The notes below the pieces were generated by a model. It made no database searches and was not told where the DNA came from. It saw only the letters and a list, made by a program, of their open reading frames with translations. This document shows, in pieces, positions 19,321-24,178 of a stretch of DNA of 64,000 nucleotides; position 1 is the first letter of the stretch, and every line of letters starts with the position of its first letter. The position numbers were made by a program, and so were the translations under genes. The DNA comes from Actinomycetes bacterium (GTDB taxonomy: Bacteria; Actinomycetota; Acidimicrobiia; Acidimicrobiales; Palsa-688), in contig JAKCDU010000003.1 of NCBI GenBank assembly GCA_021838445.1, positions 62,001 through 126,000 on the forward strand. Reading direction: 5' to 3'.

Positions 19321-20349
<1,029 letters not shown>

Positions 20350-20359
20350 TGATCCTCTC

Positions 20360-20860
20360 CTAGCTTGCCTTTCGGGCTTTGGGCAGCGCGACGCGGCCGG
20401 TGCGCTGAATCTCGATGATCCCATAGGGTCTCATCAGGTCCTCGAAGTCGTCTAGCCGGTCGGGATCCCCGGCCACCATGACGCTCAGTACGGTGGCTCC
20501 GACGTCGACGATCTTGCCGTCGAAGACCCCCACCAGCTCGATGATCCCCCGCCGGTCGTCGGGGGTGGCCGACACCGTCATCATGAGCAGCTCCCGTTCG
20601 ACCGAGTCGGCCGGGTGCAGCTCCGTGATCTTCACCACGTTGACCAGCTTGAACAGCTGCTTGGTGATCTGCTCGACCGAGGTCTCCTCGACGTCTATGA
20701 CCAGGTTCACCCGGCTGAAGCGCTCGTCGTCGGACGGCGCCACCGCCAAGGAGATGATGTTGAAACCCCGCCGGGCGAAAAGCCCGCTGATGCGGGCCAG
20801 GACTCCCGCCTTGTTCTCGACCAGCACCGACAGGGTCTGGTGGGTGGGTGACCCAGCCAT
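20360..20860 (-). CDS. ilvN: acetolactate synthase regulatory (small) subunit
   Basis: Small subunit that activates IlvB and gives valine feedback control. 166 residues: an N-terminal ACT domain ([30 protein letters not shown]) and a C-terminal ALS_ss_C domain. The ATG (20858-20860) overlaps the ilvB TGA by one base (TGATG), so translation is coupled to the large subunit. Confidence 0.97.
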
Positions 20861-22602
20861 CACTGGACCACCTTCTTGTCGGTGGGCTTCTGCGAGGGGT
20901 GGACGACGACGTCATCGTTGGCCGCGCCGGCCGGCACCATGGGGAAGACCTTCTCCCGGGCGTCGGTACGAAAGTCGATCACCACCGGTCGGTCGTCTAT
21001 CGAGTTGGCCTTGTCGATCACCGCCTGGACGTCGGAGGGGTCCTCCACCCGGAACGCCGCGCAGCCCATGGCCTCGGCCCACTTCACGTAGTCGGGCAGG
21101 TCGGGGGAAAGGTAGACCTCGCTGTAGCGCTCCTCGTAGAACATCTCCTGCCACTGGCGGACCATCCCCAGGTAGGCGTTGTTCAAGATGGCGACCTTGA
21201 TGGGTATGCGTTCGCTCGAGGCGGTCACGAGCTCCTGGGCGGTCATCTGGAAGCAGCCGTCACCGTCGACCGCCCAGACCGTACGGTCGGGACGGCCCAC
21301 CTTGGCCCCGATGGCCGCCGGCACCGAGAAGCCCATGGTCCCGAGCCCCCCGGAGTTCACCCACGTGTAGGGCTCGTTGAAGTGCCAGAACTGGCTGGCC
21401 CACATCTGGTGCTGCCCCACACCCGAAGCCAGGATGGTGCCCTCGGGGGCGCTGTCGCGCAGCACCTCCATGACGTGTTGGGGCTTGAGGGCATCGCCTT
21501 CGACGTGCGGGTCGTAGTGCAGGGGAAAGCGCTCCTGCCACCCCGATATGCGACTCCTCCACTCCGACAGGTCGGCGGCTCCTATTCCGGCCGCCCCCAG
21601 CGCCTTGACGATCTCGGTGATCACCTGGTTGCAGTCCCCGACGATGGGGACGTCGGGCTGGCGGATCTTGCCGAGCTCGGCGGGATCGATGTCGACGTGG
21701 ATGACCTTGGCGTTCGGCGCGAAGGAGTCCACCCGTCCGGTGACCCGGTCGTCGAAGCGGGCCCCCAGGGTGATGAGCAGGTCGGACTCCTGCATGGCGG
21801 TGATGGCGGTGTAGTTGCCGTGCATACCGGGCATGCCGAGGCACAGTTCGTGGTCGTCGGGGAAGGCGCCGCGGGCCATCAGGGTCGTGACGACGGGGAT
21901 GCCCATGCGCTCGGCGAGCTCCCGCAGCGACTCCGCCGCCCGGGCCTTGAGGATCCCCCCGCCGGCGTAGATCACCGGCCGGCGGGCCTCCCCGATCATC
22001 CGGGCCGCCTCCTTGATCATCCGGGGGTGGCCCTTCATGTTCGGCCGGTAACCGGGCAGGGACGCTGCCACCTCGTCGTCGGTCGGCCAGGACCATTCCA
22101 TCTCGACCTGCAGGACGTCCTTGGGCACGTCCAGCAGGACCGGCCCGGGCCGCCCGGTGGTGGCCAGGTGGAAGGCCTGCCGGACCAGGAGGGGGATCTC
22201 GTTGGGATCCATGATCAGCTCATTGTGCTTGGTCACCGACCGGGTGATGCCGACGGTGTCGCACTCCTGGAATCCGTCCGTGCCGATCACGGCCCGGCCG
22301 ACCTGGCCGGTGATGGCCACCATGGGCACCGAGTCCATGTAGGCGTCACACAGCGGGGTGACCAGGTTGGTGGCGGCCGGGCCGCTGGTCACCATGGCCA
22401 CACCGGGACGGCCGGTGACGTGGGCGTAGCCCTCGGCCATGTGGCCGGCCCCCTGCTCGTGGCGCACCAGGATGTGGCGGATGGGCGAATCGAGGATCGG
22501 ATCGTAGGCCGGGAGGATGCACCCTCCGGGCAGGCCGAAGATCACCTCGACCTGCTCCATCTCCAGGCTCTTGATCAGGGCTCGAGCTCCGGTCATCTTC
22601 AT
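20860..22602 (-). CDS. ilvB: acetolactate synthase large subunit
   Basis: ThDP- and FAD-dependent condensation of pyruvate with pyruvate or 2-oxobutyrate, the first common step of branched-chain amino acid synthesis. 580 residues. The catalytic Glu is in LVRHEQGAGHMAEGYA, ThDP/Mg2+ binding in VDGDGCFQMTAQELVTA ending in ILNN, and the FAD region in TLGARFDDRVTGR. ATG at 22602 has AAGGA about 9 bases upstream. It is preceded by a leader peptide and terminator-type attenuator (22643-22754), so the operon ilvBNC is very likely controlled by branched-chain aminoacyl-tRNA supply. Confidence 0.98.
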   Translation of the reverse strand: MKMTGARALIKSLEMEQVEVIFGLPGGCILPAYDPILDSPIRHILVRHEQGAGHMAEGYAHVTGRPGVAMVTSGPAATNLVTPLCDAYMDSVPMVAITGQVGRAVIGTDGFQECDTVGITRSVTKHNELIMDPNEIPLLVRQAFHLATTGRPGPVLLDVPKDVLQVEMEWSWPTDDEVAASLPGYRPNMKGHPRMIKEAARMIGEARRPVIYAGGGILKARAAESLRELAERMGIPVVTTLMARGAFPDDHELCLGMPGMHGNYTAITAMQESDLLITLGARFDDRVTGRVDSFAPNAKVIHVDIDPAELGKIRQPDVPIVGDCNQVITEIVKALGAAGIGAADLSEWRSRISGWQERFPLHYDPHVEGDALKPQHVMEVLRDSAPEGTILASGVGQHQMWASQFWHFNEPYTWVNSGGLGTMGFSVPAAIGAKVGRPDRTVWAVDGDGCFQMTAQELVTASSERIPIKVAILNNAYLGMVRQWQEMFYEERYSEVYLSPDLPDYVKWAEAMGCAAFRVEDPSDVQAVIDKANSIDDRPVVIDFRTDAREKVFPMVPAGAANDDVVVHPSQKPTDKKVVQ

Positions 22603-22642: not shown

Positions 22643-22676
22643 CAAAAAAGAACGACCCCCCTAATGGGAGGTCGTT
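22643..22676 (-). terminator. intrinsic terminator (attenuator) upstream of ilvB
   Basis: On the minus strand an 11-bp stem, AACGACCTCCC / GGGGGGTCGTT with loop ATTA (22651-22676; one G-T pair), is followed by C and six T (22644-22649). It lies 41 bases before the ilvB start and after a leader peptide, so it can only act as an attenuator of ilvBNC. Confidence 0.85.
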
Positions 22677-22678
22677 GG

Positions 22679-22707
22679 ACACACACGCCGGTTGCGGGCG
22701 TGTGTGT
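22679..22707 (-). promoter_or_regulatory. leader hairpin next to the leader-peptide stop
   Basis: A perfect 11-bp stem, ACACACACGCC / GGCGTGTGTGT, with a 7-base loop. Its first base is the last base of the leader peptide's TGA. A ribosome reaching the stop would cover the 5' arm, so folding of this hairpin can report leader translation to the downstream terminator. I could not identify the alternative antiterminator pairing by eye. Confidence 0.7.
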
Positions 22708-22742
22708 CAGGTGATTACTACGAGGGTCAGGCAGAGAGCCAC
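22707..22742 (-). CDS. ilvBNC leader peptide (11 residues)
   Basis: GTG start followed by ALCLTLVVIT and TGA: three Leu, two Val and one Ile codon in eleven, ending at the leader hairpin and the terminator upstream of ilvB. This is the classic layout of transcription attenuation by ribosome stalling on scarce branched-chain aminoacyl-tRNAs; the Val-Val-Ile run sits just before the stop. No ribosome site precedes the GTG. Instead TATGCT lies 6 bases upstream, so the mRNA probably begins at this codon. A different ATG (22753) gives a peptide without relevant codons. Related attenuators are known for Corynebacterium ilvBNC. Confidence 0.8.
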   Translation of the reverse strand: MALCLTLVVIT

Positions 22743-22748
22743 GGCCGT

Positions 22749-22754
22749 AGCATA
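22749..22754 (-). promoter_or_regulatory. -10 element of the ilv leader/ilvBNC operon
   Basis: TATGCT on the minus strand, 6 bases before the leader-peptide GTG. It lies in the 50-odd bases after the end of the upstream PhoU-DUF47 gene, so ilvBNC has its own promoter. Confidence 0.6.
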
Positions 22755-22804: not shown

Positions 22805-24178
22805 TCATCGGGCCTTGACCAGGATGGACTCGACTACGTCGGACGCCTCCTCGATCTGGTTCATGGCTTCCTCGAGGGAGGCGACGATGTCCTTCCACTT
22901 CAGCACCTCGAGGGCTTCGTAGTCCCCGCTGAAGAGCCGGGACATGCTGCGCCGATGGATGACATCCCCGTCGTGCTCCAACTCCTCTATGCGCTCCAGG
23001 CGTCGTCTGGCCCCCTGCCGGCTGCGCAGGCAGCCGACCAGGCATCCGAGCTCGACGGCCATGGCGGCCAGGTTCTCGGCCTGCTGCTTCACCTCGGGGA
23101 GCACCCCGTCGATGCGCACCGCCTGCATGAACGCCGCCGACGCCAGCATGGCGTCGAGCACGTCGTCGAGAGCCTCGGCCAGGGCGTGTATGTCCTCGCG
23201 GCGGTGGGTCGTGACGAGAGTCGAATCGAGCCGGCGGAGGACCTCGATGGTCAGCTGGTCGCCCTGCCGCTCGTAGTTGCGGGTCTCCTCGCAGCGCTCG
23301 TCGATGTTCGACGGGTCGTTGACCAGCTCCACCAGGACGGCCCCGCACCTGTCGATATTGGCGGCCAGCCGCTCGAACAACTCCAAGAAGCGATCGTCGC
23401 CGGGAAAGACACCCAGCCGGCCCAGCCGGCGCGCGAGTCGGCCGCCGAGCCCCCGGGCCGCCCCCGCCACCTCCCGGGAGGGCCGCCGCCGGAACGGCCG
23501 CCCCGGCGACGACCGCCCCGGCGACGACCGCCCCGGTGACAAGCGGGCCGGCGCGGCGATGGCCGACGACCGGCGGGCCAGGTTCACGGCGTGATCGCCG
23601 AGACGTTCGTAGAAGCGGGCGATCAGGGCCAACTCGGCGGCCACGGCCGGGTCGACCCCGCCGGCCGCCCCCTCCCGCAGCAGGGCGACCGAGAGGCTGT
23701 CGAGCTCGTCGTCGGCCTCGTTGATGTCGAAGCTGAGGTCGCGGGACCGCTCGGCGAAGGCCCGGGTCGACAGTTGCCACATCCGGATGCCGACGTCACA
23801 CATCGACTGGATGATGCCCCGGGCGCGGGGACTGATGGCCCCTCCCAGGTCCTGGCGGGCCCGTTGGGCGATGTGCTCGGCCAGATCGGCGCTGCGCTCG
23901 AGCTCGGGAACCATCTGGAGCACCGCGATCAGCTCCTCGAGCTCATCGGGTTCGACGGCGGCGTCGGCCAGGCGTTCTTTGATCAGGCCGGTCAGTTCGC
24001 CGGCCTGGTCGTCGACCTTGCGGTCGCCTTCGATCACCCGCTCGGCGATCTCGAGGTCCTGGTCGAGCAGGGCGACGGTGGCCCAACCGAGGCTCTCCAC
24101 CACGCTCGCGTAGAGGACCAGCATGGCCCGGTCGGTCTGCCGGCGGAAATCTTGACGGCTCGAGCCTGACCTCCCCAC
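22805..24178 (-). CDS. PhoU-DUF47 fusion protein (phosphate-transport regulator type)
   Basis: 457 residues in one uninterrupted frame. Residues 1-205 are a PhoU protein with two three-helix repeats (ELERSADLAEHIAQRA and FYERLGDHAVNLARR hold the E-R-x-x-D metal motifs). Residues about 205-250 are a Pro/Gly/Arg/Ser linker with SSPGR repeats. Residues about 252-457 match DUF47, the PhoU-related partner of Pit phosphate transporters (FLELFERLAANI, HRREDIHALAEALDDVLDAML, ELEHDGDVIHRR). PhoU signals phosphate status to PhoR/Pst, whereas DUF47 goes with Pit; neither transporter is nearby. GTG start with TAGATT 6 bases upstream. Function is inferred from the domains. Confidence 0.85.
   Translation of the reverse strand: MGRSGSSRQDFRRQTDRAMLVLYASVVESLGWATVALLDQDLEIAERVIEGDRKVDDQAGELTGLIKERLADAAVEPDELEELIAVLQMVPELERSADLAEHIAQRARQDLGGAISPRARGIIQSMCDVGIRMWQLSTRAFAERSRDLSFDINEADDELDSLSVALLREGAAGGVDPAVAAELALIARFYERLGDHAVNLARRSSAIAAPARLSPGRSSPGRSSPGRPFRRRPSREVAGAARGLGGRLARRLGRLGVFPGDDRFLELFERLAANIDRCGAVLVELVNDPSNIDERCEETRNYERQGDQLTIEVLRRLDSTLVTTHRREDIHALAEALDDVLDAMLASAAFMQAVRIDGVLPEVKQQAENLAAMAVELGCLVGCLRSRQGARRRLERIEELEHDGDVIHRRSMSRLFSGDYEALEVLKWKDIVASLEEAMNQIEEASDVVESILVKAR
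23498..23542. repeat. three tandem 15-bp units in the PhoU-DUF47 linker
   Basis: CCGCCCCGGCGACGA at 23498-23512 and 23513-23527, then CCGCCCCGGTGACAA at 23528-23542. In frame it encodes the SSPGR pentapeptide repeats joining the two domains. A unit length of 15 means copy number can change without frameshift. Confidence 0.85.

Follow-up and report, generated by a model that had tools for sequence, protein, structure and literature searches.

The window, a stretch of 64,000 nucleotides, carries on its minus strand an ilv operon preceded by a very probable leader-peptide attenuator. Direct reading of this strand gives, in order, a −10 element, a GTG start codon, a short leader reading frame, a first hairpin (H1), a terminator hairpin (T), a T tract and the genes ilvB-ilvN-ilvC. 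The gene proposed to be regulated, ilvB (20860..22602, ATG at 22602), encodes the large subunit of acetolactate synthase (TIGR00118, 762 bits), ilvN (20360..20863) the small subunit (TIGR00119), and ilvC (19321..20424, with a true start probably near 20350) ketol-acid reductoisomerase (TIGR00465). A divergent ilvD lies close by, and the identities of all four genes are confirmed by family matches. Just upstream of the promoter, 22805-24178 encodes a 457-residue protein with two PhoU-like parts, matching TIGR02135 in its N-terminal half and TIGR00153 in its C-terminal half, both below cut-off.

The promoter and start codon read TGT-TATGCT-ACGGCC-GTG on the minus strand. The −10 hexamer TATGCT (22749..22754) is of the extended type (TGN), being preceded by TGT, and the start codon GTG (22742-22740) follows after 6 nt. 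From this spacing, the transcription start is predicted at the G of the GTG, position 22742. A TTGACA-type −35 element was sought before this promoter and none is recognizable, whereas TTGC(A/G/C) stands at the expected −35 distance in relatives. The ilvL-like leader frame (22707..22742, minus strand) has 11 codons, of which three are Leu, two Val and one Ile; it encodes MALCLTLVVIT, with the putative control codons CTC GTA GTA ATC and the stop codon TGA at 22709-22707, and its LVVIT-type ending is kept in the order.

H1 (22678..22708, minus strand; arms GACACACACGCC and GGCGTGTGTGTC) is a 12-bp stem with a 7-nt loop whose 5′ arm begins inside the leader stop codon. The coordinates of the first-pass annotation are right, while its 11-bp H1 has to be extended to 12 bp to include the GA of the TGA stop. 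A single nucleotide (22677) links H1 to T (22651..22676, minus strand), an intrinsic terminator hairpin of 11 bp with an ATTA loop (AACGACCTCCC-ATTA-GGGGGGTCGTT), which runs into the T tract CTTTTTT (22644..22650). The predicted fold consists of exactly H1 and T, with −46.4 kcal/mol and z = −5.6, none of 200 shuffled sequences being equally stable, and a terminator scan picks out T and its T tract where 0.1 hits would be expected.

Conservation in relatives

We searched 61 genomes of the same genus, family and order; IlvB-like proteins are present in all 61, and the upstream regions could be read for 46. The same layout is found in every one of these 46 ilvB leaders, namely a short reading frame with Leu/Val/Ile codons at its end, a hairpin located at the stop codon or beside it, and a terminator directly adjoining this hairpin. 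When the 46 leaders are aligned, 90.3% of the cells pair, against 34-55% in slid controls. Two-sided changes occur in 15 of 21 pairs, where shuffles give 6.5 and none of 500 reached the observed count; both stems covary, H1 with 9 of 11 pairs and T with 6 of 10. A covariance model built from these leaders matches 58 of the 61 relatives, a figure that is partly by construction as it includes the 46 training leaders, and 68 of 198 genomes taken from across the phylum, where the matches inspected lie mostly upstream of ilvB and in some cases upstream of cimA. We also noticed that a Thr codon just before the stop (22712-22710 in the window) is kept in 38 of the 46 leaders, Thr being a precursor of Ile. 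In many families, the sequences of H1 (GACGCACGCG) and T (ACGACCTCCC/GGGAGGTCGT; together 22651-22708 in the window) are conserved beyond the needs of pairing.

The leaderless reading also holds in the relatives. With the −10 element chosen by score alone and the start codon ignored, an in-frame ATG, GTG or TTG lies 5-9 nt after it in 41 of 46 genomes, and the mean distance between −10 and transcription start in Streptomyces lividans is 6.3 nt (PMC8079986). Translation of the leader from the 5′ end of the mRNA is thus well supported by the sequence, and the transcription start of the window probably coincides with the leader start codon.

The first-pass annotation had regarded the region as a complete leader-peptide attenuator of ilvBNC, a view with which the layout, the coordinates, the fold and the relatives all agree. 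It had made conservation its test, and about 30 families have kept the leader codons, H1, the terminator and the spacing of the start codon; as far as the sequence shows, the predicted transcription start does not fall downstream of 22700, the limit that it had named.

Control codons and paralogous leaders

The codon choice in the leaders of the order differs markedly from that of the surrounding genes: GTA makes up 71 of 93 Val codons (76%), compared with 3.6% in seven neighboring genes, and CTC makes up 75% of the Leu codons, compared with 32%. An attenuator of the same design precedes leuB-ilvE-cimA elsewhere in this genome, outside the window (contig C115, loci L192 and L193). It encodes the leader MITGAVHVAGTVIMD and has the −10 element TACACT, 6 nt to the GTG and a 3-nt linker between H1 and the terminator; its score was below the cut-off of the covariance model. 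In relatives, further paralogues precede leuB, cimA (MKTPATAIASIIIIS, MPQQTSTNVPFIIIP) and leuA (MPTKTLSVLLLT), these genes being named by sequence resemblance in the relatives and by NCBIfam matches in this genome.

The leader codons change with the pathway. They are Leu, Val and Ile before ilvB; Val and Ile, with almost no Leu, before leuB-ilvE-cimA; three or four Ile codons in the leaderless paralogues before cimA, the gene for citramalate synthase (L089, L101); and Leu codons in the leaderless paralogue before leuA, the gene for 2-isopropylmalate synthase (L105). Of all the sequence evidence for the codons as the sensor, this match is the strongest. Among the papers searched, none describes a cimA attenuator, and none connects leader-peptide attenuators with Acidimicrobi. 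The present set extends leaderless attenuation to another actinobacterial order, and to leuB-ilvE-cimA, cimA and leuA.

Geometry of the leader

From the GTA of the first Leu-Val control pair to the base of H1, most leaders measure 7-11 nt, in this order as well as in Actinomycetes (Mycobacterium, Nocardia, Streptomyces and others). The stop codon, in contrast, stands at −1/−2 relative to H1 in this order and at +11/+14 or beyond in Actinomycetes. Since the codon-to-H1 distance is mostly kept while the stop position shifts, the conserved ruler in these sequences is codon-to-H1 and not stop-to-H1. The linker between H1 and T is short: of 74 Actinomycetes leaders that were parsed, 72 have 0-1 nt, and 0-5 nt separate the hairpins in all 21 paralogues and in 42 of the 44 leaders parsed from the order, the other two coming out at 8 in automatic parses. 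A caveat is that minimum-energy folding prefers long stems, so that linkers may come out slightly too short. In the predicted fold, H1 and T share no bases; they stand end to end and are thermodynamically compatible.

Folding with a ribosome footprint, which the first-pass annotation had suggested, was carried out with the ribosome edge assumed to be 12 nt downstream of the first nucleotide of the codon in the A site. H1 depends on the ribosome position: an A site holding CTC or the first GTA leaves it intact (P about 0.98), the second GTA weakens it (0.81), at ATC it is mostly lost (0.19), and at the stop codon it is gone. T can form at every position.

Actinobacterial leader-peptide attenuation has long been called incomplete; Seliverstov 2005 described attenuator parts as missing and the mode of ilvB control as unclear. 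The comparative set supplies a concrete geometry: the control codons precede H1 by about 7-11 nt, 0-5 nt separate H1 from the terminator, and the stop codon is free to move.

Proposed mechanism and alternatives

The element is very likely a ribosome-mediated transcription attenuator of the IlvL type that acts on ilvBNC, its leader being translated directly from the 5′ end of the mRNA with no ribosome-binding site. The direction of regulation is taken from experiments in Mycobacterium tuberculosis and Corynebacterium and would be as follows. When charged Leu, Val or Ile tRNAs are scarce, the ribosome would stall at CTC GTA GTA (ATC) with its front edge at the base of H1; H1 would fold, the abutting T would fail and RNA polymerase would continue into ilvB. 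When these amino acids are plentiful, the ribosome would reach the stop codon, cover the 5′ arm of H1 and melt it, so that T could form freely and transcription would end. A hairpin allowed by stalling and abolished by translation fits an antiterminator, and this is probably the role of H1.

As H1 and T are thermodynamically compatible, the change from OFF to ON would require a step of a steric or kinetic kind, which is hypothetical. Inside the exit channel of RNA polymerase, a fully formed terminator stem comes to within about 8 nt of the 3′ end of the RNA. A rigid hairpin flush against T could not enter the channel together with it, and we therefore propose, tentatively, that H1 may act by steric clash with T at the exit channel and not by sharing bases, a clash being in our opinion the likeliest way for two non-overlapping hairpins to exclude each other. 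In that case, ribosome edge, H1 and T would form a fixed ruler. The extension to the whole of the Actinomycetota, with H1 flush against the terminator of ilv, leu and cim attenuators and blocking the closure of its basal pairs inside the exit channel without base competition, is more speculative and we hold it with considerable doubt. Counting against the scheme, an untranslated leader would also keep H1 folded and give a default-ON state, unlike trp; the lack of a recognizable −35 element in the window's own copy counts against it as well.

The main alternative is a switch of the classical kind: H1 would be its protector (1:2, pause) hairpin, and the true antiterminator, formed with terminator bases, would have been overlooked. 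For this speak a short outer pairing of UCGU (in the Leu-Val codons) with ACGA (in the T 5′ arm), predicted in some relatives without a ribosome, a possible extension of H1 by 2-4 nt into the terminator 5′ arm in some mycobacteria, and the GCC trinucleotide by which antiterminator and terminator overlap in Corynebacterium glutamicum (PMC11857589). The UCGU/ACGA helix was rejected: it would lie beneath the stalled ribosome, and leaders that have lost ACGA (L031, L034, L037, L043) still contain CTCGTA. Masked folds, pairing probabilities of the T 5′ arm and covariation over all columns yielded no antiterminator of the 2:3 type, only GU artefacts (G-runs with T-runs) and an ACCU/AGGU match that does not covary. 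The 46-leader alignment contains no covarying stacked alternative helix, and the first bases of the T 5′ arm are predicted to pair upstream in just 15% of the order and 23% of Actinomycetes. Stalling at Leu or Val, moreover, leaves H1 intact, the opposite of what a 1:2 protector requires. We regard a classical switch as unlikely; the first-pass annotation had likewise seen no obvious 2:3 pairing, which the lack of a conserved alternative helix and of bases common to H1 and T bears out.

It appears very improbable that H1 and T simply form a cluster of tandem terminator hairpins that ends upstream transcription or sets a constitutive level of ilvB without amino-acid sensing. Clusters of adjacent hairpins are reported as bacterial terminators (PMC8355165), and altered ilvB leader codons in Streptomyces coelicolor were without effect (cited in PMC1262725), a result that also counts against sensing as such. 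A plain terminator cluster does not account for a promoter and start codon directly before the hairpins, for GTA-biased control codons that switch with the pathway in paralogues, or for the fixed codon-to-H1 distance; and changing LVVI to AAAA in M. tuberculosis abolishes the response and locks the reporter low (PMC13236596), in agreement with codon sensing. The idea of a structured RNA of another class is scarcely credible. No Rfam family reaches its gathering score for the window element, and the sub-threshold match of 6C RNA (RF01066) at 22647-22709, with 27.5 bits against a gathering score of 47 and E = 0.075, probably reflects only two adjacent hairpins, leaving reading frame and codon bias unexplained.

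Comparison with known systems

As in the E. coli trp and ilv attenuators, the position of the ribosome on a leader peptide would select between terminator and readthrough. Those classical attenuators depend on 2:3 and 3:4 pairings that overlap and on initiation at a Shine-Dalgarno sequence; the element of the window has neither, and no antiterminator containing terminator bases was found in it. It does have the features of the leaderless ilvL type of actinobacteria: a Leu/Val/Ile reading frame before ilvB, a start codon that coincides with or adjoins the transcription start predicted from sequence, an intrinsic terminator between leader and ilvB, and a hairpin just 3′ of the control codons that stalling unmasks in the ribosome scan.

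The ilvL leader of S. lividans ilvBHC (PMC8079986) is similar to that of the window in having Leu-Val control codons and a hairpin followed by a terminator before ilvB. Its peptide, MRTRILVLGKRVG, is leaderless by RNA-seq (PMC8079986) and is also encoded in Streptomyces loci recovered here, where H1 and T abut. In S. lividans, the 5′ arm of H1 has the stop codon at its far end; in the window, the stop codon is at the base of H1 and the leader ends in LVVIT. In C. glutamicum ilvBNC (ilvB-II motif; PMC11857589, PMC10272879), the start codon 1 nt from the transcription start (PMC11857589), the control codons CUU/GUA, the intrinsic terminator and the adjacent hairpins resemble the window; the three hairpins, the first of them over the initiation site, and the three-base overlap with the terminator are absent from it. 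The authors' description of adjacent hairpins with this overlap is the nearest published idea to the steric proposal (PMC11857589). The ilvB1NC leader of M. tuberculosis (PMC13236596) has LVVI control codons, a Rho-independent terminator and a structure freed by stalling at GUA and masked with the ribosome at the stop codon, all comparable to the window; its authors propose mutually exclusive structures, whereas H1 and T of the window do not compete for bases. The mycobacterial leaders recovered here have a longer H1, and their reading frame, unlike that of the window, runs through its 5′ arm.

The coupling of leaderless initiation to amino-acid sensing, which the first-pass annotation had pointed out, is not new; it is already published for S. 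lividans and C. glutamicum and is thus known in actinobacteria. Leaderless leaders are described for ilvL, leuL, trpL, metL and thrL of S. lividans (PMC8079986), and leaderless poly-Cys reading frames in mycobacteria (Canestrari 2020, as cited in PMC13236596). The element of the window is a real, conserved, ribosome-mediated attenuator of a known actinobacterial type, and its interest lies in the abutting geometry found across the phylum and not in leaderless sensing itself.
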